From a virus: 30,468 bases of DNA. The notes under the pieces were generated by a model. That model searched no databases. It saw nothing but the letters and a program-made list of their open reading frames with translations, and was not told the DNA's origin. Of the stretch, positions 1,678 to 30,392 are shown piece by piece. Each line of letters starts with the position of its first letter. Within the stretch, counting starts at the first letter, position 1. The DNA is taken from the IMG/VR virus record IMGVR_UViG_3300048079_000078, positions 1 to 30,468 of that record. One strand, 5' to 3'. The position numbers and the translations under genes are program-made.

Positions 1678-1925
1678 ACATCACTCCCGACGAGTACGCG
1701 CCGGCCGTCGCGCGGTTCCTTCACCACGAGGGCGGGCTCGGTTTTCGCTGCCGGATCTGCGCCAGGCGCTTCGGCGCTCCCAGCCTACGCGACAACCGGA
1801 GCGGCTTCCAAGGCTTCGGCTACCGGGGCACGCGTCGGGGGCTCAGTCGCGCGCAGGAGCGAAACCACCTGCGCGCGCACGCTCGCACGGTCGCCGCGTG
1901 CTTCGCACTCCTGCTCGGGCTCTAA
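1674..1925 (+). CDS. small putative zinc-finger protein
   Basis: Encodes 83 residues from ATG at 1674. It contains FRCRIC (Cys-x2-Cys) and later NHLRAH (His-x3-His), the ligand pattern of a single C2H2-type finger, although the spacer is longer (about 36 residues) than in classical fingers. Such fingers in phages often bind DNA. It is the last gene of the plus-strand chain, and its TAA overlaps the stop of the convergent methyltransferase-like gene by four bases, leaving no room for a separate terminator. Confidence 0.5.
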   Translation: MNITPDEYAPAVARFLHHEGGLGFRCRICARRFGAPSLRDNRSGFQGFGYRGTRRGLSRAQERNHLRAHARTVAACFALLLGL

Positions 1926-2623
1926 CTCGCGACCCTCCACCACGCCCACGCCCGGAACGGACCCCACGCCCAGATGACGTCGCCCCGGAGCCCTGCTCCT
2001 GCGGCCCAGCCTTCGTAAGCGCTCGCCGGCCACGGGATGAGCTGGCCCCGGAGCCGTGCCCACTTCGCCAGGATCTCCGGCGCCGGCACGTCGCGCAGCA
2101 GCTTCCAGTCGGAGTACAGCCCCGACCAGAGGTCGGCCGCCTGCGCGTTCGCCGCTTCGCATTTCTCGGCGACGACGACGAGCGCTCCCGGCCGGAGCCA
2201 GGACGCGAGCCGGTCGAGCGCCACGAGCCGGGCCGGCGGGTCGATGAACTGGAGCGAGAAGAGCGCCAGGAGCACGTCGAAGCCTGCCCCAGCGGGCTGC
2301 CACTCGAGGATCGACGAGGGCACCAGGGTCGGTCGTCGCAGCTGGGGCAGGGGCGAGAAGCGCTCGCGCGCCTTGGCGATCATGCCCTCATCCGGGTCGA
2401 CGCCGTAGGCGCACACGCGATGGGGCGAACGTGCGAGCACTTGGCCGAGCGTGTATCCGGTCGAGCAGCCGACGTCGAGCAGGCGCGAGCCGTCCGTCAG
2501 ACGCCACGCCACAACCGACGCGACCAGCTCCTGGAGCGTTTCGTAGCCGGGCAGGTGGCGCCTGACGTGCAGGTCGAAGTCCTCGCCGATCGCACTGAAG
2601 CTCCACGTCCCGGCTTGGCTCAC
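1922..2623 (-). CDS. CmoA-like class I SAM-dependent enzyme
   Basis: Encodes 233 residues from GTG at 2623, overlapping the upstream cytosine methyltransferase stop as GTGA. The class I Rossmann fold shows SAM motif I LLDVGCSTG (48-56) and motif II YGVDPDEGM. CmoA-family hallmarks are W7-x-F9 near the N-terminus, PGY at 25-27 (E. coli CmoA has VPGY39), GCS in motif I, FSLQF (122-126) where E. coli has FTLQF, and an essentially ungapped match by eye from EK153-154 to the AGL at 210-212. CmoA makes carboxy-S-adenosylmethionine from SAM and prephenate. The position matching E. coli Arg199, which I recall as a carboxylate ligand, is Trp188 here, with Arg190 and Arg192 nearby. The activity may therefore be carboxy-SAM synthesis or ordinary methyl transfer. 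Confidence 0.75.
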   Translation of the reverse strand: MSQAGTWSFSAIGEDFDLHVRRHLPGYETLQELVASVVAWRLTDGSRLLDVGCSTGYTLGQVLARSPHRVCAYGVDPDEGMIAKARERFSPLPQLRRPTLVPSSILEWQPAGAGFDVLLALFSLQFIDPPARLVALDRLASWLRPGALVVVAEKCEAANAQAADLWSGLYSDWKLLRDVPAPEILAKWARLRGQLIPWPASAYEGWAAGAGLRGDVIWAWGPFRAWAWWRVAS

Positions 2624-3846
2624 CGATTTCTCCGTCGTCTCGGCGCCTGCGCGTCGGCGGGCGCCAGGATCTCGTCTCGGATCGTCTCGGCGATCGCCTG
2701 CATCATCGGCGGGGGCACGCTCCGGCCGAGCCGTTCCCATTGCTGCGCGTAGCTCCCGACGAGCGCGAAGTCGGCAGGGAAGCCGAAGAGCGCGCGGAGC
2801 TCGGCGATGGTGAACTTCCTCGCCGCGCTCGGATGCACGACGCCCGCGGCGCCGAGATTCCCCCCGGCTTGGGTGATCGTAGGGCAGGGTGCGTGCGAGT
2901 CTGCCCGGATGAGGTTCAGGTACTTCCGGGAGACGCCCCCGGGCTTCAGGCGCCGGGCTTCGTCGGCGATCGCGAAGCGCTCGATGTTAAGCGCTTCCGG
3001 GCCGGCGTCGCCGGGCAGGCTCGCCCCCGACGAGCCCTGGCGCTTATGCTCGTCGATCGCCCGCATCTGATAGAAGCCGCGCCAGTGCGTGACGATCGTA
3101 GGAGCCGGCTGGTGCGACGGCCGGAGCTTGCCCCGGCGTCTCGACGTCGCGGCCACTTCCGGGAGCGCGTCGCGCACGCTGTAGCGGTAGAGGCGTGGCG
3201 TGGGGAACGCGGGCTCTCGCTCGAGATCGTTCCGGACGCCGAGAAAGACGACGCGCGCCCTGCGCTGGGGCACGCCGAGCCACTGTGCGTCGACGACGCG
3301 CGCCGCGACCCGGTAGCCGGCGCCGGCGAGCCGTTCCTTGATCTCGAGGTAGTAGCCCTTGGCGCGCCCGATCGCGAGCCCCCGCACGTTCTCGGCGACG
3401 AAGACTCGGGGCTGGACGCCCTGGAGCACTCGCACGTACTCGAAAAAGAGATCGTCCGCGCGCTGCTCCGTCTCGCTGTAGCGCTTCGTCTGCCCCCAGT
3501 GCTTCTGGCGCTTGCCAGCCGTCGAGAAGCTGGAGCAGGGCGGCGAGCCTTCGAGCACGTCGACGGCGCCGGCCTCGAGTCCGATGGCCTTCAGGATCTC
3601 CGCAGGCTGGACCGTCCGAATGTCTCGCGGGTCGATCGGCACGTCCGGGAAGTTAAGCCGGTAGCAGTCGCGCGCGATCTCGACGAACTCCGACGCCCAG
3701 ATCGTCTCGTAGCCGGCGAGTCGGAAGCCGAGGCAGGACCCCCCGCACCCCGTGAAGGTCGACACGACGCGGTAGCCGTTGCTCGGCACCGCGCGCGTCT
3801 CGGCCATCGACGGGCGCAGGTAGGGGGGCTTCGTCGTCGTCGTCAT
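2620..3846 (-). CDS. DNA cytosine-C5 methyltransferase-family enzyme with altered motif X
   Basis: Encodes 408 residues starting at ATG 3846, which overlaps the upstream stop as ATGA; an in-frame start ten codons earlier lies inside the upstream gene and is not preferred. Motifs are in canonical order: I FTGCGGSCLGF (31-41), IV GSPPC with catalytic Cys104, VI ENV (152-154), VIII QRRAR (from 194), a target-recognition region of about 210-330, IX around PCPTIT, and X. Motif X reads LGRSVPPP with Arg375, where the family normally has Asn (GNS); the codon at 2722-2724 is CGG. That Asn contacts SAM in known structures. The enzyme should act on C5 of cytosine in DNA. Recognition site unknown. Coupled to the CmoA-like gene downstream. 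Confidence 0.92.
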   Translation of the reverse strand: MTTTTKPPYLRPSMAETRAVPSNGYRVVSTFTGCGGSCLGFRLAGYETIWASEFVEIARDCYRLNFPDVPIDPRDIRTVQPAEILKAIGLEAGAVDVLEGSPPCSSFSTAGKRQKHWGQTKRYSETEQRADDLFFEYVRVLQGVQPRVFVAENVRGLAIGRAKGYYLEIKERLAGAGYRVAARVVDAQWLGVPQRRARVVFLGVRNDLEREPAFPTPRLYRYSVRDALPEVAATSRRRGKLRPSHQPAPTIVTHWRGFYQMRAIDEHKRQGSSGASLPGDAGPEALNIERFAIADEARRLKPGGVSRKYLNLIRADSHAPCPTITQAGGNLGAAGVVHPSAARKFTIAELRALFGFPADFALVGSYAQQWERLGRSVPPPMMQAIAETIRDEILAPADAQAPRRRRNR

Positions 3847-4472
3847 TGTTTCCAGCGATAGCCGCACTTGGGACACTGGTGCGTGGTGTCCTCGGTCGGC
3901 GTCGGGAAGCTCCCGGGCGCCGTCTCCTCGAGCCGGCCGAGCCAGCCCTTGATCTCGTGCTCCGTGAAGCCGGTGAGCGTCAGGTCGCCGCCTTCGACTT
4001 CGAGAGCCCGCAGGAAGCGCTCGAGATCGTCGGGCTCCCAGGTGCCGCTGTTCCGGTTGAGCACCAGCATCAGCTCGCGCTCTCGCTTCGCGTTGACGTC
4101 GACGTAGAGCACGGGCACCTCATGGGTACTGGTATCCGGGTGGCGCGCCGATTCGGCCCGGATGCGCTGGTGGCCCGAGACGACGCCGGGCGCCGACCCC
4201 TTCGGCCAGCCCTGCTTCCTGCTCCGCAGGTTCAGGACGATGTTCTCCACCCACCCGAACGTCTCGAGCGAGCGCGAGAGCACGCCGAAGTCGTGCTCAC
4301 TGATCCGGCGAGGATTCTCCGGGTGCATCCACGCCGTCAGGTGCGCGAGCGTCGCCACTACCACGGGCTGCCACTCGCGCGAACGCCCGCAGCCCGGGCA
4401 CCGGACCGCCGGGGCCGTCGTGCTCTCGGTGCTCTCGAGACGGGCGCAGGAGCCGCAGCGCCACGTCGGCAT
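3843..4472 (-). CDS. ParB/sulfiredoxin-like domain protein with zinc ribbons
   Basis: Encodes 209 residues from ATG 4472, directly after the stop of the upstream gene. An N-terminal zinc ribbon has C6-x2-C9 and C25-x2-C28, and a C-terminal CPKCGY pair lies at C200/C203. Between them is a ParB-like domain: HPENPRRIS, then SGHQRIRAE (the ParB box II-type Gx2R motif), then EVPVLYVDV and LNRNSGTWEPDDL, a combination common in phage and plasmid ParB-like proteins beside DNA methylases. ParB-fold proteins include CTP-dependent DNA clamps, nucleases and small-molecule kinases, so the reaction cannot be stated. Its TGA overlaps the methyltransferase ATG, suggesting a joint role in DNA modification or protection. 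Confidence 0.75.
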   Translation of the reverse strand: MPTWRCGSCARLESTESTTAPAVRCPGCGRSREWQPVVVATLAHLTAWMHPENPRRISEHDFGVLSRSLETFGWVENIVLNLRSRKQGWPKGSAPGVVSGHQRIRAESARHPDTSTHEVPVLYVDVNAKRERELMLVLNRNSGTWEPDDLERFLRALEVEGGDLTLTGFTEHEIKGWLGRLEETAPGSFPTPTEDTTHQCPKCGYRWKQ

Positions 4473-4829
4473 CTAGGCCGCGCTCGGCTGGTCGTGGTCC
4501 TGCCGATCGTCACCGCCGTCACCCGGGCCGTAATCGGAGCCACCCAGGTCGAGCTGGAGCTGTCCGCCGGCGCGCCACGCGAGCGTATGCGCCGGGCTCT
4601 CTTCGCTCGGGAGCTTCACGCGCGCCGAGCACCGCACGTTCGGGGGCGAGTCGTCGTCCTGCTCGAAGCAGACGGCGAGCGCGATCTCAGCCTTGACCGT
4701 GCCCATCATCTTGTGGAGCTTCGTCTCGACGAAGCCGAGGTGATCTTCGACGAGCTTTCGCAGGTCGGCCAGGATGATCTCCAGCAGCTCCTCCGAGGGC
4801 TTGCGCTTTTCTACTCTCGTCTTCCCCAT
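4473..4829 (-). CDS. hypothetical protein, 118 aa
   Basis: The chosen ATG at 4829 has a strong upstream GGAGGAAAG ribosome binding site, so a longer in-frame start at 5045 is rejected. The first 45 residues are a charged helix (KPSEELLEIILADLRKLVEDHL), the middle looks like beta strands with one Cys pair far apart, and the C-terminus is very acidic. I cannot name a family. The gene lies inside the replication/modification operon and its first 143 bases overlap the 3' end of the gene upstream. Confidence 0.6.
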   Translation of the reverse strand: MGKTRVEKRKPSEELLEIILADLRKLVEDHLGFVETKLHKMMGTVKAEIALAVCFEQDDDSPPNVRCSARVKLPSEESPAHTLAWRAGGQLQLDLGGSDYGPGDGGDDRQDHDQPSAA

Positions 4830-5160
4830 CGTGCTTTCCTCCGTCGCGCCGCCGTTCATAGGCGACGCGAGATAGCAGCGAAGCGAGCGGGATGGCGACC
4901 TGCACTGGCGCGGCTCCCAGCTCCTCGAGCATGGCGAGCGCTCCGCGCGCGCGCTCGCCCCGGTCGCGCAGGCACGGGCGCCCGGGCTTTTTCCAGCGCC
5001 GTTGGCCCGTCGTCTGCGAGCGACCGTCCTGAAGCGTCGGCTCATACGTCTCGACCCGGCCGTAGAAGGCGAGCGCGTCGCGCAGCACCCACCAGGGGTC
5101 GAACAGCGACAGCCCCGGGAGCGCGAACTCGGACGCGGGCAGGATGACGGGCTCAGTCAC
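4687..5160 (-). CDS. hypothetical protein, 157 aa
   Basis: GTG at 5160 overlaps the nuclease gene stop as GTGA. The N-terminal 105 residues look like a folded domain rich in aromatic and hydrophobic positions (LSLFDPWWVLRDALAFYGR). The last 50 residues, encoded by bases shared with the following gene, are charged and low in complexity. The true product may therefore be mostly the first 110 residues with an accidental tail. No family is recognised; neighbours suggest a replication or DNA-modification accessory role. Confidence 0.5.
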   Translation of the reverse strand: MTEPVILPASEFALPGLSLFDPWWVLRDALAFYGRVETYEPTLQDGRSQTTGQRRWKKPGRPCLRDRGERARGALAMLEELGAAPVQVAIPLASLLSRVAYERRRDGGKHDGEDESRKAQALGGAAGDHPGRPAKARRRSPRLRRDEAPQDDGHGQG

Positions 5161-5543
5161 GGGCTGATCTCCTCGTAGGTGTAGACGCCGAGCGGTGTGC
5201 GCCCCTGATATTGCTCGACGACGCCGAGAAACCGTAGCTCGGGAAACTCCTGAGCGGCGACCTTGATTCTCAGTCGCGCGGCCTCGCGCCAGTGCCCCTT
5301 GAACTCGTGCATCTCGACGTAGCCGTCGACGTCGAGGCACCAGAAGTCGCAGGTGTACCACGCGCCCTGCGCGAGCCGGAGCTTCACCGCCTCGAAGCGC
5401 CAGAGCAGGATCTCGCCGGCGACCCGGCGGATCTCGAGGCTCTGCGAGTAGCGCTGCTCGGCGGGGTTCATCTCGCCGTAGCGCTTCGCCTGCCGGACCT
5501 GGCCCCGCGCGCGCACGCGCCAGCGACGGCGCCGGGGGCTCAC
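5157..5543 (-). CDS. DUF1064-like phage endonuclease (PD-(D/E)xK fold)
   Basis: Encodes 128 residues from GTG 5543, overlapping the upstream stop. After a basic N-terminus, the core shows a restriction-endonuclease-like site: D66 in YTCDFW, then E80-F-K82 in MHEFKGHW, and a later Lys/Arg-rich helix (RLRIKVAAQEFP). This matches the DUF1064 group of phage nucleases, thought to act as resolvase- or RecB-like DNA-cutting enzymes during replication or packaging. Length is typical for the group. Its position between the putative replication protein and the modification genes fits DNA metabolism. Confidence 0.75.
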   Translation of the reverse strand: MSPRRRRWRVRARGQVRQAKRYGEMNPAEQRYSQSLEIRRVAGEILLWRFEAVKLRLAQGAWYTCDFWCLDVDGYVEMHEFKGHWREAARLRIKVAAQEFPELRFLGVVEQYQGRTPLGVYTYEEISP

Positions 5544-7048
5544 AGCTCGTCCTCGTCGCCATAGGGTGACTCCGGATCTGGCTCGGGCTGGCGCGCCTCG
5601 GGCTTCGGCACGGGGCGCAGGGGTCGCGCCGGGGGCGCCGGCCGGGGCTTGCGCTCGGGCTCGTCGGGGCGCCGGAAGCCCGAGACGACGCTAGCCGCCA
5701 CGGCGCCGATCGGCACAGGCTCCCGGCTCGGGCTCCGGGCCGGGGCCGTTCGGGGCTCCTGCTGCGACGTAGTGCGCGCAGGCGGCGGCGCCGGGGGCTT
5801 CGTGGCTCCGTTCTGCTCGGCCCGGCGCCTGTGCACGTCCGGGTCCTCCCCTGCCGGCGTGACCCGGGGATGCGTCCGGCGGTACTCGGCAAGCGCTCGA
5901 GCCTGCTCCCCCGAGGCTTGCTCGGCCGTAGCGACGCGCTTCAGGTCGGCTAGTCCGCCGTCTAGCGTGGTCCGGGCTCGCTCGTGGCGGGCGCCTTCGT
6001 CGTCCGCCGAGACGGTCGGGCCCCGGCGCTTGACGTGCGTGCGCCACCACTGGAGCGTTTCGGCCGCGACCGCCGCGTTGAACTTGGCGCGCGACGCTTC
6101 GGCGCCCGGCTTCCGGAACGCCGCCACCTCGATCCTGGGCAGCTCCCGGGTGAGCCACGCCGTCTTGACTTCTCTGGTGCCCGGCTCTTTGCCGAGGAAG
6201 TTGACGAGCTTGTTGACCCGGGCCGGCAGGGCTGACGTGACGTACTCGGGGGGCACCAGGGTCGCGCGCTCTTCGTCGGTGAGCTCTCGGGGCGGCGCCG
6301 GCGTTTCGGTCCCTACGTGTGTCCCTACGTGTTCCCCCGACGCCGTGGTGCGCGCCGAAGGCTCTGCTGCTCTCGTCGTAGTAGGTCCCTCTTCTCCTGC
6401 TCTGCTCTTCTCTTCGAACGTCTTAGAGAAGAACGAAGATGCAGAGGGAGTCTCCTGCAAAGGCTTTACCCTCTGCGCTCTTCGTCTCCTGCTAAGGCTA
6501 GAAGAGGAGAGAGCGGTAGCGGTGCCTACGTGTTCCGTCGTAGCGGTACGCGTAGGGCCGACCGTTTCTAGCAAGTCCGGTAGGATAGCTAAGCGAGCAC
6601 GGCCGAGCCGAGGCCATGCCGTGGTCGAGCGAAGGCCAGCGTCTGGTCGATAGCCGGTCAAGCCGTGGCTCTGCGCCGGCTCTGCCGTGGCTTCGCCGTG
6701 GCTTCGCGCCGGCTCGTTTCCGGTCGGCACGAGCAGCCCAGACTCGAGCACTGCGCGCCACCTAACTTGGCAGTCGCGCGCGCGCGGGCCGGGCCCGAGC
6801 AGGTAGGCCACGTCGGCGTAGCTCAGCTCGAGCGCGCCGTCCGAGTCGAGCTGCGAGCCTTTCCGCAGGAAGAGCACGGCCGCTCGCAGCGCGCAGGCTT
6901 CCAGCCCGCGGTAGACGAGCACGGAGTCGGCGAGTTGGAGCATCCACCGCTGCGCGTGCTTCGGCGCGATCGGTCGCGGCAAGTCCCCTCCCACCCTGAC
7001 GGCCGGAGCAGAGTCTATGCCCGGGGGCCGGCCGCTGTCTAGGGCCAT
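5540..7048 (-). CDS. putative phage replication/DNA-binding protein
   Basis: Encodes 502 residues from ATG 7048. Residues of about 30-110 look like a winged-helix/HTH domain of the phage replication-initiator kind (LADSVLVYRGLEACALRAAVLFL...LSYADVAYLLGPG). A low-complexity linker follows (about 110-235), then a helical domain (about 240-340) and a very Pro/Arg-rich C-terminal tail. No helicase or polymerase motifs are seen. As first gene of the minus-strand operon, opposite a recombination module, it is placed like an initiator, and direct repeats lie within its coding sequence as in phage lambda gene O. The initiator role is inferred from position and architecture; a transcriptional regulator is the alternative. 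Confidence 0.5.
   Translation of the reverse strand: MALDSGRPPGIDSAPAVRVGGDLPRPIAPKHAQRWMLQLADSVLVYRGLEACALRAAVLFLRKGSQLDSDGALELSYADVAYLLGPGPRARDCQVRWRAVLESGLLVPTGNEPARSHGEATAEPAQSHGLTGYRPDAGLRSTTAWPRLGRARLAILPDLLETVGPTRTATTEHVGTATALSSSSLSRRRRAQRVKPLQETPSASSFFSKTFEEKSRAGEEGPTTTRAAEPSARTTASGEHVGTHVGTETPAPPRELTDEERATLVPPEYVTSALPARVNKLVNFLGKEPGTREVKTAWLTRELPRIEVAAFRKPGAEASRAKFNAAVAAETLQWWRTHVKRRGPTVSADDEGARHERARTTLDGGLADLKRVATAEQASGEQARALAEYRRTHPRVTPAGEDPDVHRRRAEQNGATKPPAPPPARTTSQQEPRTAPARSPSREPVPIGAVAASVVSGFRRPDEPERKPRPAPPARPLRPVPKPEARQPEPDPESPYGDEDEL
6309..6332. repeat. tandem 12-bp direct repeat (iteron-like)
   Basis: GTCCCTACGTGT occurs twice in perfect tandem (6309-6320 and 6321-6332) inside the putative replication gene. 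On the coding strand it produces the repeated peptide HVGT. A related copy lies at 6522-6533. Confidence 0.7.
6401..6500. other. possible replication origin: low-GC segment with hairpin between iterons
   Basis: I count 51 G/C in these 100 bases, clearly below the surroundings. An 8-bp perfect inverted repeat, TCTTCTCT (6406-6413) and AGAGAAGA (6425-6432), has an 11-base loop. Iteron-like repeats flank the segment inside a gene that looks like a replication initiator, the arrangement of origins of the lambda O type. This is inferred from pattern only. Confidence 0.35.
6522..6533. repeat. third iteron-like copy (one mismatch)
   Basis: GTGCCTACGTGT differs from the tandem copies by one base (C to G at its third position). 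It lies about 190 bases from them, on the far side of the region of lower GC. Confidence 0.6.
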
Positions 7049-7123
7049 CGAGTGAGAGATTCCGCTTCCCTTTTCCGGGGCCTATCGGCTACGATCCCGG
7101 GCCCGACGTAGAGGAGAGCCCAC
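7049..7123. promoter_or_regulatory. divergent intergenic region, likely bidirectional promoter
   Basis: This 75-base gap is the only divergent junction in the window, so it must feed the replication/modification operon leftward and the recombination operon rightward. A weak sigma70-like pair for the rightward operon may be TTCCCT (7066-7071) and TACGAT (7090-7095) with an 18-base spacer. A GAGGAGAG ribosome binding site precedes GTG 7124. I see no convincing operator. Confidence 0.4.
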
Positions 7124-8290
7124 GTGCCCGATCCCGTGCAGGTGCCCGAGGTAGTGCGCGAGCCCGAGCGCGCGATGGTGTCGACAGGCTCACCTGGCGA
7201 CGCCATCCAGAGCTTCCAGCAGCTCGAGCTGGGGATGGAGCGCGCACGGAACATCGCCAACCGGCTGAGCCATCTCGTCAAAGAGAAGCACCTAGCCGTG
7301 CAGATCGGGCAGGGTGAGCACCTGAAGGTGGAAGCGTGGTGCGCGCTCGGCGCGATGGTCGGCGTCTCGCCGATGACGGAGTGGACGCGCCAGGTCGCCG
7401 GCGCCGACGTCCCAGCCTACGAAGCGCGCGTCACGGCCGTGCGGATCGCCACGGGGCAAGTGATCTGCGCCGCCGAGGCCGACTGCTGGTCCGACGAGTA
7501 CAAGAGCCTGCGCGACGGGGGCTTCCGGCACAACTGGGTCCCTGGCTGCCCGGTGCACGAGACGCACCCCAAGACGCCCTGCGAGTACGCGCCGACGCGC
7601 CACGCGCTCCGGTCGATGGCTCAGACGCGTGCGGTGTCGAAGGCGCTAGGGCAGGCGCTCCGGTGGATCGTGGTCCTGGCGGGGTACTCGGGCACGCCGG
7701 CCGAAGAGATGACGTTCAAGGACGATGGCGCCGAGAAGCCGAAGCCGGCGAGCTTCGAGCGCGGCGCCGCGCAGGCGCGCGCGAAGCAGGAAGCCGCGGC
7801 GCAGGCTGGCAAGCCGGCGCAGGCGCCGGCGACCCGGGATGAGTGGGACAACAGCACGGCGGGCCCGCCTCCGGCTCCCGGCCCGGCCCGGAGCGCCGAC
7901 GCGATCTCCGAAGGGAAGCAGCGGCGCGCGTGGGCGCTCGCGAACAAGCGAGCCGGCGAGCTAGGTGGCGACTGGACGGCTGACGCGCTCCTGCTCCGGC
8001 TCTGCCGCGCGCTCTCCGTCTCGGAGGTCGGCGAGATCCACTGGCGCAACTTCGGGAACCAGAAGCAGCCCGAGCGCTATCCGGACTGGATCGAGCTGTT
8101 CCTCGAGACGTGGGAGCCCCCGGAAGAGCCGGCCGCCCCGCAGGAGCAGGAGCCCGGCCCCCAAGACGAGGCCTTCGTGGACGGCGCCGTGCCCCAGGGC
8201 GCACGCCGGAGCACGGCGCGCGCGCCCGACGATCGCGACGAGCCGCCCCCGCTCGAGGACGCCGACCAGCGCGGGGGCTACGGAGAATGA
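7124..8290 (+). CDS. putative ssDNA-annealing/recombination protein
   Basis: Encodes 388 residues from GTG 7124, preceded by GAGGAGAG. Residues of about 30-200 match a phage pattern often found beside Gp157-like genes: a helical start, the segment LKVEAWCALGAMVGVSPMTEW, a beta region (YEARVTAVRIATGQVICAAE), and the helix HALRSMAQTRAVSKALG followed by LAGYSGTPAEEM. The C-terminal half is Ala/Pro-rich with a second helical segment around 260-315. I infer a role in homologous recombination or single-strand annealing from this resemblance and from the Gp157 neighbour; there is no direct motif proof. An inserted CPVHETHPKTPC stretch may bind metal. The stop overlaps the next ATG (ATGA). Confidence 0.5.
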   Translation: MPDPVQVPEVVREPERAMVSTGSPGDAIQSFQQLELGMERARNIANRLSHLVKEKHLAVQIGQGEHLKVEAWCALGAMVGVSPMTEWTRQVAGADVPAYEARVTAVRIATGQVICAAEADCWSDEYKSLRDGGFRHNWVPGCPVHETHPKTPCEYAPTRHALRSMAQTRAVSKALGQALRWIVVLAGYSGTPAEEMTFKDDGAEKPKPASFERGAAQARAKQEAAAQAGKPAQAPATRDEWDNSTAGPPPAPGPARSADAISEGKQRRAWALANKRAGELGGDWTADALLLRLCRALSVSEVGEIHWRNFGNQKQPERYPDWIELFLETWEPPEEPAAPQEQEPGPQDEAFVDGAVPQGARRSTARAPDDRDEPPPLEDADQRGGYGE

Positions 8291-8796
8291 GCCGGCCGAA
8301 CGTCAACGCGCTCTTCGACGTCGCCGACGCCATCGAACGCATCTTGGCGCAGGAGTGCGACCCGGAAACCGGCGAGATCACGGAACGCACGCTGGAGCAG
8401 CTAGACGCGCTCGAGGGGCACCGTGACCGGATCGCGCTCGACGTCGCGGCCTACCTGAAGGGGGAGCGCTGCGAGGCCGAGAAGATCCAGCGAGTGGCCG
8501 ACGAGCTCAGCGCCCGCGCCAAGGGGCACCGCGACCGGGCAGAGCGCCTGCTCGAGTACATCGGCCGGATCGTCCCCGCCGGAGACAAGCTCAAGGACGA
8601 ACGCGTCACGATCTCGTGGAGCCCGTCGAGCTTCACAGCGGTCGACGACGCCAAGCTGGTCCCTGCCGACTACTGGCGTCAGCCACCGCCTCCGCCACCC
8701 CAACTGGACAAGGTGATCCTGCTCGCCGTGCTCCGTGCCGGGCAGGTGATCCCCGGCGTTCATCTCCAGAAGAGCCACTCGCTCCGGGTGAAGTGA
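8287..8796 (+). CDS. Gp157 family protein (siphovirus Gp157)
   Basis: Encodes 169 residues from ATG 8287, which overlaps the preceding TGA. It has the layout of the Gp157 family: a long N-terminal helical coiled-coil region (about 1-100, with ETGEITERTLEQLDALEGH), then the beta segment ERVTISWSPSSFTAVDDAKLVPADYW, a proline run, PQLDKVILLAVLRAGQVIPG, and a terminal SLRVK. Gp157-type genes usually sit in phage recombination/replication modules beside annealing proteins or exonucleases; their biochemical role is not well defined. Length is normal for the family. Confidence 0.88.
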   Translation: MSRPNVNALFDVADAIERILAQECDPETGEITERTLEQLDALEGHRDRIALDVAAYLKGERCEAEKIQRVADELSARAKGHRDRAERLLEYIGRIVPAGDKLKDERVTISWSPSSFTAVDDAKLVPADYWRQPPPPPPQLDKVILLAVLRAGQVIPGVHLQKSHSLRVK

Positions 8797-8797
8797 G

Positions 8798-9355
8798 ATG
8801 ATCAAGGTGACGCTCGAGTCCGACGGCGCCGGCACACCGCCGACGTTCCGAGCCTTGCGTCTCGCTCTCGAGCGCATGGCCTGGATGATGCTGCTCCAGC
8901 ACCACGCCGGCAACCTCTCCCGGCTCGCGAAGCACAGCGGGCTCGACCGGAGCCACGTCACGAAGCGCGTCCGAGAGCGAGGGCTCTGGGGCTATCGCGA
9001 GCAGGCGCGAGCGAGCAAGCACAGCCGCCTGAGCGGGCTCGGCTACGTCTCGGGCACGGGCTATCTGGAGCGTCAGGTCTGGAGAGCGCTGTTCGGCCCT
9101 ACAGGCGAAGCCATCGGCGAGATTCTTCAGCACCAGTCTCTCGAGACGGCCGAGCCGTACCAGCCTTCACCGCCGGCCGCCGAGCCGCGGGAAGACGGGG
9201 GCAATAGGGCCCCCACCGAAGGATCTCAGGAGATGACGAGATCCGACCGCAGCACACCCAAGAGCGTCGGGGGGATGGTCCACCCGACGCTCGCTGCCCC
9301 TATTCGCGCCTTCGCGGAGAGCCTGCTCCGGCTGGTCGACGTCGAGCCGTCGTGA
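8798..9355 (+). CDS. Fis-like helix-turn-helix protein
   Basis: Encodes 185 residues from ATG 8798, two bases after the previous stop. Residues of about 25-70 resemble the Fis-type HTH found at the C-terminus of NtrC-family activators: a helix LERMAWMMLLQHHAGNLSRL, then AKHSGLDRSHVTKRVRERGLWGY. The rest is polar with a short hydrophobic C-terminal helix. It probably binds DNA, either as a regulator of this module or as a DNA-bending accessory factor. No ATPase domain is attached. The stop overlaps the next GTG start. Confidence 0.55.
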   Translation: MIKVTLESDGAGTPPTFRALRLALERMAWMMLLQHHAGNLSRLAKHSGLDRSHVTKRVRERGLWGYREQARASKHSRLSGLGYVSGTGYLERQVWRALFGPTGEAIGEILQHQSLETAEPYQPSPPAAEPREDGGNRAPTEGSQEMTRSDRSTPKSVGGMVHPTLAAPIRAFAESLLRLVDVEPS

Positions 9356-9630
9356 CGGCCGAAGAGCGCGCCGAGATCGGCTCCTGGGTCGAGAGCAGGC
9401 TGAAGGCGATGGGGCGCGAGTACCCTCACGACTCCGCCCGAGCCCACGCCGCGCGCCGTATCCAGCACGCCGTCGACCTGAACGCTCCGGGCACGCTCGA
9501 GTGTGAGGACGATCTGCGCGCCCTGGCGTCTGCACTCGGGCCCCACATCGCGAGCCGTGGTGTCTCGCCCGAAGTCGCGGTGCTCTACACCAGGACGCTC
9601 GAAGCGCTCGGGCGCAGTCTCTTCGACTAG
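9352..9630 (+). CDS. small hypothetical protein, 92 aa
   Basis: GTG at 9352 overlaps the previous TGA. The protein is predicted mostly helical and charged (RAEIGSWVESRLKAMGREY, then ARRIQHAVDL). No family is recognised. It sits in the plus-strand recombination operon, with a TAGGAG sequence at its stop that probably serves as the ribosome binding site of the next gene. Confidence 0.5.
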   Translation: MTAEERAEIGSWVESRLKAMGREYPHDSARAHAARRIQHAVDLNAPGTLECEDDLRALASALGPHIASRGVSPEVAVLYTRTLEALGRSLFD

Positions 9631-9641
9631 GAGCCGTTCCA

Positions 9642-9872
9642 GTGAGCGACGTCGAGAGCCCCCGACGCGATCCCACGCAGGCGACAACGGTGCGCCTGGA
9701 TCGACAGCTCCACCGACTGACGCTCGGCTACGCCGTCGCGCGTCGCATCCCCTTCCGACGTGTCGTCGAGATCGCGCTCCAGGACTACCTCGCCAAGCGC
9801 TTCCACGAGGACGGCGAGCTGGCCGAGTGCGTTCGCCGTTTAGCGGCGGTGCGCGCGAAGGCGAAGCCCTAG
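9642..9872 (+). CDS. small ribbon-helix-helix-like protein
   Basis: Encodes 76 residues from GTG 9642, preceded by TAGGAG at the end of the previous gene. ATTVRLDRQLHRLTLGYAV could form the ribbon and first helix, and FRRVVEIALQDYLAKRF the second helix of a CopG/Arc-type DNA-binding fold. A role as a small repressor is inferred. Its TAG overlaps the stop of the convergent virion/lysis operon. Confidence 0.5.
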   Translation: MSDVESPRRDPTQATTVRLDRQLHRLTLGYAVARRIPFRRVVEIALQDYLAKRFHEDGELAECVRRLAAVRAKAKP

Positions 9873-10114
9873 CGCCGGCGCTCTTCGATCCGGCGCAGAT
9901 AGCCGTTGTTCTCGGCGACCTGCTCCCGTAGCCCGTCCAGGCTGTTGCGCAGCGACTCGATGCTCTGGAGCGTGCCGACCGTCACCTGCTCGAGCGACGT
10001 GGTGCGGGCGCCGTTCGCGCGGACTTCGCCGTAGAGCACGACGCCGCCGACGATCCCGGCGATGGAGACGCCGACCACGACTCGGGTGAGCGCGCCGTTC
10101 GTGAGCGGTTTCAC
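9869..10114 (-). CDS. small membrane protein with coiled coil
   Basis: GTG at 10114 overlaps the upstream stop as GTGA; product 81 residues. One hydrophobic span (about 11-28, VVVGVSIAGIVGGVVLYG) is followed by a heptad-like helix (TSLEQVTVGTLQSIESLRN...VAENNGYLRRIEERRR). A single N-terminal membrane anchor plus coiled coil would fit an accessory lysis or superinfection protein, but no family is recognised. It is the last gene of the long minus-strand operon and its stop overlaps the convergent gene. Confidence 0.5.
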   Translation of the reverse strand: MKPLTNGALTRVVVGVSIAGIVGGVVLYGEVRANGARTTSLEQVTVGTLQSIESLRNSLDGLREQVAENNGYLRRIEERRR

Positions 10115-10611
10115 GGGGTCACCTCCGGCTCCGGCGGGACGTAGCCTGGCACGAGCGACTGGACCTGCTGGGGCAAGCCTTCCCACCAGTCGTACCGCTG
10201 GAGTCGCTTGAGCTTCGGGAGCTTCGGCGTCGGCACGGGCTCGGGCTCGGCCGCGACGTGGAGCACGACGTCGTGGCCCGGGGGCGTCAGCACCTCGGGC
10301 ATCGGCGCCGGCTCGACGGGCTCGGGCCCCATCCCCCCGCCGTGGAGCACGCGCCAGCAGCGCTCGTCGCGCTCCTGCGCCCGGACCAGCTCGGCGGTGT
10401 AGACGGCCGAGAGCCCCTGGAGGAGCTGGACGCTCGCGGCGCTCTCGCGCGCGATCGACGCGCGCTCCCCCTCTGCTCCCCGCCACTGGTAGACGCTGCC
10501 CCCGGTCCCGAGCGCGCCGGCCACGGCGGCTACGGCCGTCAGCAGGCGCACGAGCCGAGCACTCCCCGCGCCGTTCGCCGGGGCCCCGGTAGGAGACGAG
10601 CCGTTAGGCAT
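10111..10611 (-). CDS. membrane-anchored Pro-rich protein, possible spanin-like
   Basis: Encodes 166 residues from ATG 10611, with GGAGG about ten bases upstream. One membrane span at about 20-37 (LVRLLTAVAAVAGALGTGG) precedes a helical segment of about 40-85, then a proline-rich C-terminal half. N-terminal anchor, periplasmic helix and proline-rich stretch beside a holin-like gene suggest an inner-membrane spanin or another lysis accessory. There is no decisive motif, so the call is tentative. Confidence 0.4.
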   Translation of the reverse strand: MPNGSSPTGAPANGAGSARLVRLLTAVAAVAGALGTGGSVYQWRGAEGERASIARESAASVQLLQGLSAVYTAELVRAQERDERCWRVLHGGGMGPEPVEPAPMPEVLTPPGHDVVLHVAAEPEPVPTPKLPKLKRLQRYDWWEGLPQQVQSLVPGYVPPEPEVTP

Positions 10612-10683
10612 CTTCCTGGCCTCCTAGGGCATCCTGCGCAGCCCGCCTCCGGGGCGCCCCCGGGGCGTGCCACGTGGAACACT
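10612..10683. other. 72-base intergenic gap with GC-rich inverted repeats
   Basis: Between two minus-strand genes there are overlapping GC-rich palindromic runs (GGGGCGCCCCC and CGGGGCG). No T-tract follows on the minus strand, so a classic terminator is not supported. It also carries the ribosome binding site of the gene downstream. Confidence 0.3.
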
Positions 10684-11157
10684 TTAGGCCATCAAGGCGA
10701 CGAGCACGGCCGAGAGCGCGCCCCGAGCGACCTTGCCCCCGACCTGCTTGAGATCGGCGACGAGCGCGGCCCTGCCTTCGACGATCTGCGCCCGAAGCTC
10801 GGCGGCGATCTGCGCGCCCTGGAGCGAGAAGCGCACGAGGTCGCCGTCGGAGAGCGCGGATAGGTCGAGGTGGTCGAGCGAGCCGTCCTCGAGCGCGAGC
10901 CCCCGGACGATCGAGAAGGCGAAGTCCGCGCCCCCGGTCGCGATCGTCGGGGCATGCCTGACGATCAGGTCGGTGAGCTCGTCGCGCAGCTCGACGTGCG
11001 CTTCGAACGGGTCGACGTCGCTGGCTCGGGGGTCGGCCTCGAGCCCCAGCTCTTCGGTCGCCTCCCGCAGCGCGAGCTGCCGGAAGCCTTCGAGCATCCC
11101 GTCGAGTAGGAACCGCGCGCGCTCGGCGAGCCCTTCGGGCTTGATCAGGAGTCGCAT
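10684..11157 (-). CDS. hypothetical protein, 157 aa
   Basis: The start chosen is ATG 11157, two bases after the stop of the upstream gene; an upstream in-frame extension overlaps that gene and reads as shadow. The sequence is mostly helical and acidic (GLAERARFLLDGMLEGFRQLALREATEEL), ending in a short hydrophobic segment (ARGALSAVLVALMA) that could touch the membrane. Its place between a holin-like gene and small membrane genes suggests lysis or late function, but no family is recognised. Confidence 0.5.
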   Translation of the reverse strand: MRLLIKPEGLAERARFLLDGMLEGFRQLALREATEELGLEADPRASDVDPFEAHVELRDELTDLIVRHAPTIATGGADFAFSIVRGLALEDGSLDHLDLSALSDGDLVRFSLQGAQIAAELRAQIVEGRAALVADLKQVGGKVARGALSAVLVALMA

Positions 11158-11159
11158 GG

Positions 11160-11717
11160 CTACTCGCCCCCCAGCACGGCCGAGCCGTCGCGCCACATCG
11201 CCGACCACGCCCCGAGCATCCGGACGCGCGCGCCGGCGTCGAGACGCCCGGTGGCTTCTCGGGCCCACGCTTCATCGCAGACGCGCGACTGGAACGCGTG
11301 CGCGCGCGCGAGCCGGGGCACGGCGGCGCCGGCGCCGAAGGGGACCCGGTAGGCGACGGCGGTGCCGGCCGTGTCCGTGAGCGCCACGGCCGAGCGCCGG
11401 TGCGCATCGCAGACGTCGACGGTCAGCCGGGTCGCGCTCTGCCCGTAGGCGGCGGCGTCCCGGTAGCCGGCTCCGTCGTAGTGGACGCAGCCGAGCCCGA
11501 GGAGCGCGACGAGCAGGAGCACGGGCGCCACGGTCGGCGAGCCCTTGTCCTTCCAGAGCACGGCGACGGCGCCGGCGAGCGAGATGCCGACGGCCGCGAG
11601 CGCTTCGACCTGCTCCGGCTCGAGGTAGATCCCGAAGCCGGTCAGGAACGTGATGAGCCCGAGCCACGAGGAACGCTCCCGGGCGCGCGCGAGCAGGAAG
11701 CGGAGCAGGATCGGCAT
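11160..11717 (-). CDS. holin-like protein continuous with lipoprotein-like domain
   Basis: Encodes 185 residues from ATG 11717 behind GGGAGGA. Two membrane spans, about 17-32 (SWLGLITFLTGFGIYL) and 40-55 (LAAVGISLAGAVAVLW), separated by a short acidic turn and followed by KDKG, look like a small phage holin. A third hydrophobic stretch (63-76) ends at Cys77 (LLGLGC), an imperfect lipobox, followed by about 108 soluble residues with two more Cys. An internal GTG at 11561 (residue 53) would give a product with a signal-peptide-like N-terminus. The gene may encode a holin and a lipoprotein (o-spanin-like) in one frame. Holin call moderate, lipoprotein call tentative. Confidence 0.5.
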   Translation of the reverse strand: MPILLRFLLARARERSSWLGLITFLTGFGIYLEPEQVEALAAVGISLAGAVAVLWKDKGSPTVAPVLLLVALLGLGCVHYDGAGYRDAAAYGQSATRLTVDVCDAHRRSAVALTDTAGTAVAYRVPFGAGAAVPRLARAHAFQSRVCDEAWAREATGRLDAGARVRMLGAWSAMWRDGSAVLGGE

Positions 11718-11765
11718 GGTGGAATCCTCCCGGCCGGCAGTCTACCTCGCCCCGGGCTCCTGGGG

Positions 11766-12065
11766 CTAGAGGGTCCGGACGGGCAGCAGGAACTGGCGTT
11801 GCCAGATCCGTGGGCCGGGCACGCCGAGGTTCGACGTCGCGGTCAGCTCCAGGGTGTAGTCGATTCCGTCCGTGCCGCCGGTGATCCACACCCGGGCGAT
11901 CTTGCCGCCGGCCAGGATCTCCTGGGTCACGAGCGTCGGCCCGGCAGGCGAGACGGTCCAGACGCCCGAGACGAGCTGCTCGGTAGCATCGAGCACGGCC
12001 GTGAAGTCGACGGAGTAGTCGAGCCGGTCGCTCGGGTCCTTCCAGGGGAACGTGTGGACGGCCAT
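11766..12065 (-). CDS. fiber-tail adaptor-like structural protein
   Basis: Encodes 99 residues from ATG 12065. The pattern PSDRLDYSVDFTAVLD, then SGVWTVSPAG, then a beta strand and ARVWITGGTDGIDYTLELTATSNLG with a final basic strand matches the small all-beta phage fiber-tail adaptor group, which joins tail fibres to the tail end. It lies just downstream of fibre genes, as expected. The stop is TAG at 11766-11768, and a 48-base gap separates it from the holin-like gene. Confidence 0.65.
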   Translation of the reverse strand: MAVHTFPWKDPSDRLDYSVDFTAVLDATEQLVSGVWTVSPAGPTLVTQEILAGGKIARVWITGGTDGIDYTLELTATSNLGVPGPRIWQRQFLLPVRTL

Positions 12066-12299
12066 CTAGCACCTCTCGCCTTCCGGGATCGCATAGCGCC
12101 GGGAGTCCACTACACGGTACACCCGGGGGCCGGTGATGGGAACGCTCCGGAGACCCGAGACGGCGAAGCTCCGGGAGAGCCCGGCCAGGGCCCGGAGCCG
12201 AGCCTGGGGCCCGAGCGCGTAGGCTCGGAGCCCGGCCCCGATCGCGACGCTTCGCGTCTGCACCAGCGCGTGCTCGCGCTCAACACACCTCGGCGACAC
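12066..12299 (-). CDS. small hypothetical tail-region protein
   Basis: A 77-residue frame from GTG 12299, ending directly before the adaptor start. It is basic, with short hydrophobic patches (SRSFAVSGLRSVPITGPRVYRVV). No family is recognised. Support comes from tight packing: it overlaps the preceding small gene by 20 bases and abuts the next. Its N-terminus could also begin at an internal start. Confidence 0.4.
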   Translation of the reverse strand: MSPRCVEREHALVQTRSVAIGAGLRAYALGPQARLRALAGLSRSFAVSGLRSVPITGPRVYRVVDSRRYAIPEGERC

Positions 12300-12471
12300 G
12301 ATTCTGTCTCAGCTCCATCCGGCGAGCGGGGCTCGCTAGCGTTACGCTTCTCGACTGCTCCAAGCAGTAGGTGCGCTCTTTCTCGAGCGGCAGCTCAGTG
12401 CCGGCCGTGACGACGATCCCGAAGATGACGAGATCGGCTCCAGCCCCGACGGCGCGCCCTAGACCGACCAT
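12280..12471 (-). CDS. very small protein with hydrophobic segment
   Basis: A 63-residue frame from ATG 12471, three bases after the stop of the fibre gene. The N-terminus has a weakly hydrophobic stretch (ADLVIFGIVVTAG) and the rest is polar. No family is recognised. It fills a gap that would otherwise be non-coding and overlaps the following small gene. Confidence 0.35.
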   Translation of the reverse strand: MVGLGRAVGAGADLVIFGIVVTAGTELPLEKERTYCLEQSRSVTLASPARRMELRQNRVAEVC

Positions 12472-12474
12472 AAA

Positions 12475-13749
12475 CTACACCACGTCACGCTTCGAGATCA
12501 GCGGGCCCTGCGGTCGATTGCCCGTGTTGATGTTCGCGCCGAACTGATCGAAGAGATCCGCGCGCTGAAGCTCGGTCACTTCGTCGTCGTTATACACCAC
12601 TTCCTGCGCCGGGTTCGGGACCCAATCGACCATCCGGTTGTTCGTGAGATGCTTGCGGGTCGCGATCGTGTCGGAGCCCCGGACCACGCGCTCGGAAGCG
12701 AGAGGGAACCCTACGGTATTGACGATCTCCCCGATGCCAGCGAGTACGATGATCGGGCTTCCGCTGCCGGTCGAGAAGTGGACCTGCGCCCCCTTGAGTA
12801 CCGCCGCGAGTAGGTCCCCACCGGCGATGTTCACGAACTGCCAGAAGCCGACCAGCCCCTCCGCGAGCATCGTGGCAGCGCCCGCGCCCATGTCGATCCG
12901 GGTGCCGCCGCCGAAGCCCACCAGGCCTACATCGCCCGCACGAGCCGGGCCGACGAGATTGAACGCTGAACCGATGGAGAGGGCGATCGAAAACCCACTA
13001 GCGCCATCGGCCTCAAAGGTGCAGTTGTCGAAGGTCCCGTCGAGCCCGGTGGTGTTCCCGGTGGAGAGCCCGATCTGGCACTCCGTCCCGATGACGCGCC
13101 CCGAGAAGTTGCCCCAGGCGGTGATGCGCCCGAGCCGGACCCCCGCCGTGCTGATCGCGCCGGCTCCGGTCGAGAATCGGATGATATCGTTCTGCGGGTC
13201 GACGCCCTCGAAGGTGAAGTCGGTGAACACGCCGCCGTTGACGGTCGCGTCGAGCAGGAGCGTCGAGCCGTTCGACCGGATCAGGAAGGCTTTGGGGAGG
13301 TTGAACGCCGCCCGGATCGTAAAGGCGTTTGCCAGGTTATTCACGGGCAGCTCGGGCGTCCCGCGCGGGTACGCCGTCCCGGGCACGCCGAGCACCGTAT
13401 CCACGTGGACGCGTCCGCCGAAGCGCTGGAGCGCCGACTCGTCGGGGTAGCCGCCGACCACGACTTTCGACTCCTGGATACGGCCGGTCACCGTGTCCCG
13501 GAGAATGACGATGAGCTCGGCGAACACCGTGAGCGGCGTGGTGAGATTCGCGGTGGACCACTCGTAGGTGGCGAACCCGCCGAAGGCGGTGCCGGGGATC
13601 TCCGTAGCGTTCGCCGACGCGATGGATAGCGAGGCCCCGGTCGTCAGGTTGCGCACGAGCACGGCCTGGATCTGCCCGGCCGGGAGCGCCGACAGGAACT
13701 TCCCGACCGCGTGCATCGTCTCGCCGAATTGCGGGGTGGCGTATCTCAT
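12475..13749 (-). CDS. tail fibre / receptor-binding-region structural protein
   Basis: Encodes 424 residues from ATG 13749, overlapping the upstream stop as ATGA. The N-terminal 110 residues form a beta-rich domain that ends in ESKVVVGGYPDES. The centre has the glycine/asparagine-rich repetitive strands of a beta-helix-like fold (about 120-350). The C-terminus contains EVVYNDDEVTELQRADLFD, a pattern often seen at the end of phage tail-fibre or appendage proteins. A host-surface contact role is inferred from position after the baseplate genes. No catalytic site is visible. Confidence 0.6.
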   Translation of the reverse strand: MRYATPQFGETMHAVGKFLSALPAGQIQAVLVRNLTTGASLSIASANATEIPGTAFGGFATYEWSTANLTTPLTVFAELIVILRDTVTGRIQESKVVVGGYPDESALQRFGGRVHVDTVLGVPGTAYPRGTPELPVNNLANAFTIRAAFNLPKAFLIRSNGSTLLLDATVNGGVFTDFTFEGVDPQNDIIRFSTGAGAISTAGVRLGRITAWGNFSGRVIGTECQIGLSTGNTTGLDGTFDNCTFEADGASGFSIALSIGSAFNLVGPARAGDVGLVGFGGGTRIDMGAGAATMLAEGLVGFWQFVNIAGGDLLAAVLKGAQVHFSTGSGSPIIVLAGIGEIVNTVGFPLASERVVRGSDTIATRKHLTNNRMVDWVPNPAQEVVYNDDEVTELQRADLFDQFGANINTGNRPQGPLISKRDVV

Positions 13750-15512
13750 TCTCCGAACTCTCCCTCATAGGGCGGCGAGATCCGATCGACAGGAAGATCC
13801 GAGCCGACCGGCTCGGACATGACGAAGGGGTCGTTGTGGAGCCGGAAGCCGCCGCCCTCGCCCACGAAGCGATGCGTGAAGTTGGTGACCGCGTTGCTCG
13901 AGGCTCGATGCTGACGGCGTAGGTTAACGCCCACCCCAGCGTTTAGGAAACCGTTCACGTCCGTCACCCCGGTAAATACCTGCGTCCAGGCCACACCATT
14001 GTTCTCGTAGATCGTCACCGTGAATCCGCTGATCTCTATAGGAGTCGCATCGGGCGCGTCGAGAGAGACGAAGCGGGGGTTGAACGTGTACTGCTTTTCA
14101 CACGTTGCGGCCCCGCCAGAGTTTATCCCTAGCGTCGTGATATCATAGTCCTCGCCTGGGTTGAGAAAGATGAAGAGCCCGGAGATGATCGTCAGGAGCG
14201 GAGAGACCACCAGATCGCTCTTCCGGAGCCCGGCGAGAGTCCCGACGGACACGACGGCGGCGGCGGCGGTCGTGTTCTGGCAGAGCAGGAGGTTCGCCAT
14301 GTCGGCGGAGCCGGTCAGGATCAGGTAGCCGATCCCGCCGACTACCGCGGTGGACTCGACGAGCCCCCCAGCCCCCTTCAAGGTCAGCCCCTCGCGAATG
14401 ATCGAGGCGATAAACTCGTCGGCGAACGGCCCGCCGAGCAAGCCCGCAGGGTTTCTCGTGTCCCAAAGCGAGCCGTAGGCCCGGAGCCGGGCCAGGTTGA
14501 ACGGCGTCGAGTTGAGCTGGCCCGGGTCTACGCCTACCCACGCCGAGCAATTCTGCGCCGAGAAGCGATTGCCGAGACGCAGCCCGAGCCGGAAGTTGAG
14601 CGAGCCCGTCCACCCGGCCCCGGTGAGCGGCCGGATGTTCACGGGCCCGCTCCCAAGATCGCCCCCGGTCCCCGCCGTCGCGGCTCGACGCGCGACGAAC
14701 ACCGTCTCGTTGCCCGAGGTCCAAGCGGCGTCGCCGACGAGCCCGGCCTGCTCCACGTAGATGTTCGTGAGACCGTGGATCGTGTAGAGGGTGCGGGTGA
14801 CGCCAGCGACGTCTGCTCGTCTCTTCCGGATGTAGTCGCTGATCGCGCCCGAGCCGAAGAAGGTGCCGGGCGTGGGAGCCGCGATCGGGGTCGCCACATC
14901 GAGATATCGCTGCCACGTGAGGGTGGCCTCGTCGATCTGAAAGGCTACGTGGACTCCGCGTCGCGCCGTGAGCGTGCCCGAGGCAGCCTGCGTCGCCATG
15001 CCGACCCCGCCGTCGGGCGGGCGAGCTATCACCCGGGTATTCGACAGGATCTCCTGCACGTACCAGGCGCCGTTATTGGCGAGAGTGGTGGAGCCCGTCA
15101 CGACGAGACGGTCGCTGAGATCCATGATGACGCCGCCGACGGCCTGGCTCATGAAGGTGGCGCCCGCGACTTCGATAACTGCGAGAGCGGTGCCCGGGAT
15201 GGCGGTGACGGACGTGATCGCGCTCGCCGTAAAGGTGTAGGCCGCGGCCCGGTTCAGGCGCGCCGCGTTGCCGACTGCGCCCTGATCGGCAGGCGCCGGT
15301 CGGAGCAGATACGTGTCCGGCGTCGGCACGGTGTCGATCGCCGAGGCGGAATAGAAGCCGTCGTTCCCTCCCGTGCCGAAGAGCTCAATTATGTCGCCGA
15401 CCAGGGCCGTCGTGAGATCGGCGGTGACAGTAAGGACCCCGGCGACGATGCTGACGATCGCGGGCTGCGAAGCCGTCCGCGACCCCTCGCCCTGCCGGAA
15501 GGTGATCGCCAC
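13746..15512 (-). CDS. large tail appendage protein, beta-rich
   Basis: Encodes 588 residues from ATG 15512. The N-terminal 230 residues have alternating beta strands with repeated patterns (VLTVTADLTTALVGDIIELFG, and later DRLVVTGSTTLANNGAWYVQEIL), resembling small domains in phage tail proteins. The middle (about 240-460) is glycine- and asparagine-rich and probably beta-helical, and a C-terminal module contains ISGFTVTIYENNG and TDVNGFLNAGV, similar to carboxypeptidase-like or Ig-like beta modules. It is likely a fibre or spike component. Stop overlaps the next ATG. Confidence 0.55.
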   Translation of the reverse strand: MAITFRQGEGSRTASQPAIVSIVAGVLTVTADLTTALVGDIIELFGTGGNDGFYSASAIDTVPTPDTYLLRPAPADQGAVGNAARLNRAAAYTFTASAITSVTAIPGTALAVIEVAGATFMSQAVGGVIMDLSDRLVVTGSTTLANNGAWYVQEILSNTRVIARPPDGGVGMATQAASGTLTARRGVHVAFQIDEATLTWQRYLDVATPIAAPTPGTFFGSGAISDYIRKRRADVAGVTRTLYTIHGLTNIYVEQAGLVGDAAWTSGNETVFVARRAATAGTGGDLGSGPVNIRPLTGAGWTGSLNFRLGLRLGNRFSAQNCSAWVGVDPGQLNSTPFNLARLRAYGSLWDTRNPAGLLGGPFADEFIASIIREGLTLKGAGGLVESTAVVGGIGYLILTGSADMANLLLCQNTTAAAAVVSVGTLAGLRKSDLVVSPLLTIISGLFIFLNPGEDYDITTLGINSGGAATCEKQYTFNPRFVSLDAPDATPIEISGFTVTIYENNGVAWTQVFTGVTDVNGFLNAGVGVNLRRQHRASSNAVTNFTHRFVGEGGGFRLHNDPFVMSEPVGSDLPVDRISPPYEGEFGE

Positions 15513-15515
15513 GGC

Positions 15516-16019
15516 CTAGACGGCGACCTGATCCAGCGCGAGCTGGACGCCGGCGCGCTGCGCGTCGATCGACGCTCGGCCGAGCTGAGCCGCTTCCACT
15601 AGCGCGTCTCGGGGCGCCGACGGGGGAAAGCTGAGCGCCTGGGAGATCCCTGCGTCCACGTTCGCGAGCTTGGTGACGAGAAGCGCGAGCGTCGCCGCGA
15701 GGGCCTGAGCCTGATTCTCCGCGTCGATCGGGGCCAGCGTGCTCTCGAGCAGGTGGTCGAATACGGCGCGCGCCGCGTCGCCCGCTCGCGCCGGCCCGAT
15801 CGCGGCGACCTTCGGCGCTAGGGAGACGTCGTAGTCGGCGGTAGCGATCCAGCCGAGATCGACCAGGCCCGCGAGAAAGACGTCGAGCCACTGGCTGAGC
15901 ACCGGCTCGACGAAGCCCTGCGCGAGCGCGAGCGAGAGAAGCTGAGCGCGGTTGCCGCCACTCGGGTGCGTTTGCCAGTAGAGAAGCAAGCCGTTGAGCG
16001 CGTCGGTGAGCGTCTTCAT
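15516..16019 (-). CDS. hypothetical helical tail-region protein
   Basis: Encodes 167 residues from ATG 16019, overlapping the upstream stop as ATGA. Almost entirely helical by composition, rich in Ala and Leu (ALAQGFVEPVLSQWLDVFLAG, QAQALAATLALLVTKLANV). No family is recognised. It lies between the DUF5675 protein and the fibre genes, so it may be a chaperone or a structural spacer for the tail end. Confidence 0.5.
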   Translation of the reverse strand: MKTLTDALNGLLLYWQTHPSGGNRAQLLSLALAQGFVEPVLSQWLDVFLAGLVDLGWIATADYDVSLAPKVAAIGPARAGDAARAVFDHLLESTLAPIDAENQAQALAATLALLVTKLANVDAGISQALSFPPSAPRDALVEAAQLGRASIDAQRAGVQLALDQVAV

Positions 16020-17271: not shown

Positions 17272-17283
17272 GCTCTCCCCCGG

Positions 17284-21710: not shown

Positions 21711-21729
21711 GCCGGCATCTCCCGCAGCC

Positions 21730-25690: not shown

Positions 25691-25691
25691 C

Positions 25692-26398: not shown

Positions 26399-26448
26399 GG
26401 TGACTCTCCCTCCCGGGGCCGGACGCTACGTCAGGGCCGAGCTCCGCG

Positions 26449-26853: not shown

Positions 26854-26879
26854 GGAGTCCTCCTACGCGCCCGTCGGCG

Positions 26880-27236: not shown

Positions 27237-27255
27237 GAGCTTTCCCCTTCCTGCC

Positions 27256-27618: not shown

Positions 27619-27619
27619 G

Positions 27620-29468: not shown

Positions 29469-29478
29469 GCGCGCGCTC

Positions 29479-30363: not shown

Positions 30364-30369
30364 GGTGTC

Positions 30370-30387
30370 CTCCCGCGCGCCCGGGAG
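30370..30387 (-). promoter_or_regulatory. small hairpin overlapping a ribosome binding site
   Basis: CTCCCG (30370-30375) and CGGGAG (30382-30387) form a perfect 6-bp stem with a six-base loop. On the minus strand the second arm includes the start of the GGGAGGA ribosome binding site of the signal-peptide gene, so folding could reduce its translation. No T-tract follows, so it is not a standard terminator. Confidence 0.3.
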
Positions 30388-30392
30388 CGCGC

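Follow-up and report, generated by a model that had tools for sequence, protein, structure and literature searches.

A phage ParB-CmoX-CmoA gene cassette that probably carboxymethylates cytosines in DNA

A ParB-like gene, a cmoX-like gene and a cmoA-like gene of a phage probably constitute a DNA-modification operon that makes 5-carboxymethylcytosine (5cxmC) via carboxy-SAM (probability about 0.89, by analogy with a proven system). These genes are located in the window, the whole stretch of 30,468 nucleotides analysed here, which is an incomplete record (IMGVR_UViG_3300048079_000078, positions 1 to 30,468). A natural DNA carboxymethyltransferase, CmoX, has been reported for Synechococcus phage S-B43, in which the phage CmoA makes carboxy-SAM and CmoX uses carboxy-SAM to form 5cxmC (Yang et al. 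2025, Nat Commun 17:281; PMC12783734). In the same way, the CmoA of the window would convert SAM and prephenate to carboxy-SAM, and its CmoX would flip the target cytosine out, with Cys104 attacking C6 and Arg375 gripping the carboxylate of carboxy-SAM, and would move the carboxymethyl group to C5 to yield 5cxmC in the phage DNA. This 5cxmC may block host restriction enzymes; HhaI resistance has been shown for the homologous system (PMC12783734). The activity of these particular proteins, the sequence that they target and any benefit for the phage are inferred by analogy. An earlier note on the window had proposed that the gene pair could carboxymethylate phage DNA. The proposed mechanism matches the S-B43 experiments, but is already published and no longer new, so that the pair is a new example of the published carboxymethylation system, not a new kind. 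The proposal, made from the letters of the DNA only, is an independent hit on a modification that was first proven in December 2025 in another phage.

The features of the cassette are listed in Table 1. The cmoX frame encodes 418 residues when it is read from the GTG at 3876 and 408 residues when it is read from the ATG at 3846, which is the more likely start. The protein contains the motifs GSPPC, ENV, QRRAR and ERLGRSVPPP, and the Arg of the last motif is residue 375, as counted from the ATG at 3846. The complete frame and these motifs bear out the earlier description of a C5-methyltransferase with the usual motifs and Arg375 at motif X. The overlap of its TGA stop with the GTG start of cmoA as GTGA was likewise seen correctly, and lies at 2620-2623. 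Three base changes are necessary to convert the CGG codon 375 to AAC or AAT, and a 95% identical relative (locus L002, IMGVR_UViG_3300048080_000167) agrees with the window both in gene order and in the use of CGG for this residue. A read error is therefore very unlikely, as the earlier note had argued, and a read error or a wrong frame was rejected on these grounds as the source of Arg375. A degenerate, functionless remnant would be consistent with the divergence of the window CmoA from E. coli CmoA, but is highly improbable, because both frames are intact and the relative, with 95-96% identity in each of the two proteins, retains the order, the overlap and the Arg codon. The ParB-like protein has zinc-ribbon cysteine pairs at both ends and matches the ParB-like family phrog_620 (2.8e-22), with no match to Pfam ParBc. 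Its gene is a probable operon member with cmoX and cmoA.

Table 1. Positions of the cassette genes and of the motif X codon in the window
Feature	Coordinates	Strand	Evidence
cmoX-like gene, putative DNA cytosine C5-carboxymethyltransferase	2620..3876	-	PF00145; 8YF3 sequence and fold matches
cmoA-like gene, putative carboxy-SAM synthase	1922..2623	-	233 aa, GTG start; TIGR00740, phrog_4752, fold
Arg375 codon CGG, motif X Asn position	2722..2724	-	Alignment to SpCmoX Arg350
ParB-like gene	3843..4472	-	phrog_620 match; abuts cmoX directly upstream

The window CmoX is most similar to the S-B43 enzyme (SpCmoX) regardless of whether sequence or fold is compared. It matches the Pfam family DNA_methylase PF00145 (3.2e-53), and its best PDB sequence match is 8YF3, the 1.9 A structure of SpCmoX (E 2.7e-65; next 6.8e-22), with a pairwise identity of 39%. 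The earlier note had proposed structure prediction for both proteins. The AlphaFold model of the window CmoX (mean pLDDT 85.9) has 8YF3 as its best fold match as well (E 3.0e-30; next 4.7e-21), and that of the window CmoA (pLDDT 92.3) has E. coli CmoA, 4GEK (Foldseek E 3.6e-19; VIA-align Z 28.4, a score at which YecO and 4IWN are tied). SpCmoX has Arg350 in place of the motif X Asn; this residue is in contact with the carboxymethyl group, and the R350N variant accepts neither cofactor (PMC12783734). Arg375 of the window CmoX aligns with Arg350, the carboxylate binder of SpCmoX, which supports the earlier suggestion that a basic residue at motif X could hold the carboxylate. Phe25, Glu47, Phe48 and Asp69, which contact the adenine and ribose of carboxy-SAM in SpCmoX (PMC12783734), correspond to the identical residues Phe31, Glu53, Phe54 and Asp75 of the window CmoX. 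Likewise, Ser95-Cys98 corresponds to Ser101-Cys104, so that the SPPC catalytic motif is located at residues 101-104. Thus, all carboxy-SAM contacts checked by alignment to SpCmoX are conserved. The window C5-methyltransferase is very probably a natural carboxymethyltransferase that uses carboxy-SAM on DNA cytosines, as judged from its likeness to SpCmoX.

Alternatively, the enzyme could be an ordinary 5-methylcytosine enzyme in which an Arg is tolerated at motif X, with an unrelated small-molecule methyltransferase as its CmoA-like neighbour. However, among enzymes of solved structure the nearest is SpCmoX, which is proven to transfer carboxymethyl groups and does not use SAM (PMC12783734). 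The CmoA-like protein has TIGR00740 as its best NCBIfam model (1.9e-13), for which it scores 50.7 bits, below the curated cut-off of 193.3, and it matches phrog_4752 (5.6e-33). It is only 23% identical to E. coli CmoA, it lacks Arg199 of that enzyme, and the SAM-dependent methyltransferases CysG and BelI are near to it in fold (Z 26-27 versus 28). In contrast, the proven S-B43 CmoA (SpCmoA) is likewise without Arg199 and likewise below the cut-off (115.6 versus 193.3). According to the alignment, the window CmoA retains Tyr39, Asp62, Ser66, Asp89, Lys185 and Lys198 of the E. coli enzyme, and Lys174, Lys187 and Arg192 of the window protein have Lys175, Lys187 and Arg192 as their counterparts in SpCmoA. 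The window protein, unlike CysG, has the two Lys residues that do not vary between E. coli CmoA and the phage CmoA groups.

Arg199 of E. coli CmoA forms a salt bridge with the carboxylate (PMC3663124). The earlier note had cautioned that the window protein has Trp188 at this position. The alignment confirms this position, but the caution carries little weight: SpCmoA, a proven enzyme, has Glu there, and its kcat is ten times as high as that of the E. coli enzyme (PMC12783734). Inactivity of the window CmoA owing to Trp188 is therefore not supported. Both the window CmoA and SpCmoA have Arg192 at the position of E. coli Glu203, one helical turn after the 199 site. The 129 CmoA sequences from the collected loci fall into three groups by residues 199 and 203, plus one sequence with Ser/Glu: Arg or Lys199 with Glu203 (n=33), another residue at 199 with Arg203 (n=22, including the window CmoA), and Glu199 with an uncharged residue at 203 (n=73). 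The residue pattern suggests that in the second group the carboxylate-binding Arg may be shifted by one helical turn, from 199 to 203. These groups lead to a testable idea about the way in which the new carboxylate is held in carboxy-SAM synthases.

The earlier note had also proposed to ask whether, across phage genomes, C5-methyltransferases with Lys or Arg at motif X co-occur with CmoA-like genes more than Asn versions do. To examine this, 114 loci with at least 1.2 kb of flank on both sides were drawn from viral contigs and bacterial genomes, with a query that was mostly of the Arg type, and CmoA was sought within 6 kb. CmoA is present at 85 of the 88 loci with Arg at motif X, but at none of the 9 with Asn or the 16 with Met (25 in total). 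The association is clear in these numbers, which represent few independent events. One of the three Arg-type exceptions (L165) has CmoA approximately 5 kb downstream. Fisher's test for Arg versus Asn gives p 1.5e-10 on loci that are related to each other. In the tree, Arg and Asn change approximately four times, and the only two well-supported independent pairs both change in the expected direction, a number too small for significance. Arg-type enzymes are thus paired almost exclusively with CmoA, as the Asn and Met types at these loci never are, which is a further point against an ordinary 5-methylcytosine enzyme, and this alternative is improbable. A ParB-like neighbour is present at 82 of the 88 Arg-type loci.

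The loci also include other arrangements. The C5-methyltransferases with Met at motif X (GMSVPP; L178-L199 and L204) are mostly from Bacteroidota and form one supported clade, with no CmoA nearby. In Staphylococcus phage vB-SscS-F1 (L039, 5980-8498), CmoA and a CmoY-like ligase lie next to a distant C5-methyltransferase whose motif X residue is Gly, which possibly represents another way of binding carboxy-SAM. Erwinia phage Yoloswag (L040, 5998-7656) has CmoA and a CmoY-like ligase, and CmoX is absent from the stretch examined. Multiple ParB-CmoX-CmoA cassettes per bacterial genome are found in L136-L154, mostly metagenome-assembled genomes of Verrucomicrobia. A chromosomal, non-phage role for these cassettes was considered and rejected, because the four loci examined (L143, L145, L154 and L164) look prophage-like by eye, with genes for polymerase, helicase and large terminase, and a portal-like gene in one. 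The multiple cassettes apparently sit in multiple related prophages.

In S-B43, the ligase CmoY couples glycine to 5cxmC, and the phage DNA contains the glycyl form without free 5cxmC (PMC12783734). By the same route, 5cxmC in the window's lineage could be an intermediate only, to which a non-homologous tailoring enzyme adds an amine. This possibility is consistent with the presence of a ligase, either CmoY-like or of the glutamine-amidotransferase type, near 30 of the 88 Arg-type loci, as compared with none of the 25 Asn or Met loci, and with the fact that most genes of the 56-kb relative (G001, the record that contains L002) have no assigned function. However, a search for the CmoY-type Asn_synthase domain (PF00733) gives no match in the window, G001, S-CRM01 or Moraxella phage Mcat8, but does detect CmoY in S-B43. 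No ligase family emerges when the larger uncharacterised proteins of G001 are scanned with Pfam, and no recurrent candidate tailoring gene was seen beside the ligase-less cassettes in a noisy scan that returned mostly shadow frames and phage structural genes. A role of 5cxmC as an intermediate only is therefore doubtful, although a ligase from a family that these scans do not recognise may lie elsewhere in the genome. Plain 5cxmC may be the final base in the window's lineage, because the Asn-synthetase-type ligase is undetected in the window and G001. We tentatively propose, as one combined reading, that the ligase-less phages (the window's lineage, S-CRM01 and Mcat8) end with unamidated, negatively charged 5cxmC and that the CmoA Arg of the window's group has moved from 199 to 203. 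If true, free 5cxmC would be a state so far unseen in native phage DNA, one for which the ligase-less cassettes provide a direct test.

The relative G001 is 56,185 bp in length, and most of the window aligns to it. Its ends share a direct repeat of 127 bp, which a genome that is circular or otherwise complete would be expected to show. The identity between the window and G001 is 99.99% over 17027-30468 and approximately 92.6% over 1935-17153 of the window, and changes abruptly near 17.1 kb, which suggests that phages have recombined or that the assembly is mosaic. Two similar genes of approximately 120 aa that lie side by side (26880-27237 and 27256-27619 of the window), each with approximately 76% DNA identity to the G001 counterpart of the other, are likely a tandem duplication in the structural region. 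In G001, a small protein encoded at 31508-32080, just downstream of a terminase-like gene, has EXXH ferritin-type diiron-like motifs by eye, and matches no Pfam or PHROG family convincingly. A tail protein of the window's phage is similar to tail proteins of Caulobacter, Brevundimonas and Rhodobacter phages, which is a weak hint of an alphaproteobacterial host. With this phage, the known range of the carboxymethylation system comes to include one that is GC-rich and whose tail gene resembles those of Caulobacter and Rhodobacter phages.

The CmoX-CmoA-CmoY system of S-B43 resembles that of the window in having a homologous C5-methyltransferase with Arg at motif X, the same carboxy-SAM contacts and a phage CmoA alongside. 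The two differ only modestly: the gene orders are ParB-CmoX-CmoA in the window and CmoA-CmoY-CmoX in S-B43, and no CmoY is detected in the window; the residue at the 199 site of CmoA and much of the CmoX sequence differ as well. ParBc-domain genes are present near many cmoX genes, and 5,615 CmoX candidates have been tabulated with their CmoA, ligase and ParBc neighbours (PMC12783734); cmoX of the window also has a ParB-like neighbour. Mcat8 (KR093632) has CmoX followed by CmoA, as the window does, with no ligase found in its 40.7-kb record, but its CmoA belongs to another sequence group, with Glu at the Arg199 site and without the Arg one turn later. Streptomyces phage TurkishDelight (NC_073473, genes 121-125) has ParB-like, CmoX and CmoA genes in the same order and on the same strand as the window, and its CmoX is 48% identical to that of the window, but a glutamine-amidotransferase-type ligase lies between CmoX and CmoA. 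E. coli CmoA (4GEK, 4IWN) shares its fold and many SAM contacts with the window CmoA, but serves tRNA modification with CmoB. Engineered M.MpeI N374K is a laboratory mutant with Lys and CG specificity, unlike the window enzyme, but in both a basic motif X residue is associated with carboxy-SAM, the use of which it permits in the mutant (PMC12783734) and probably in the window CmoX.
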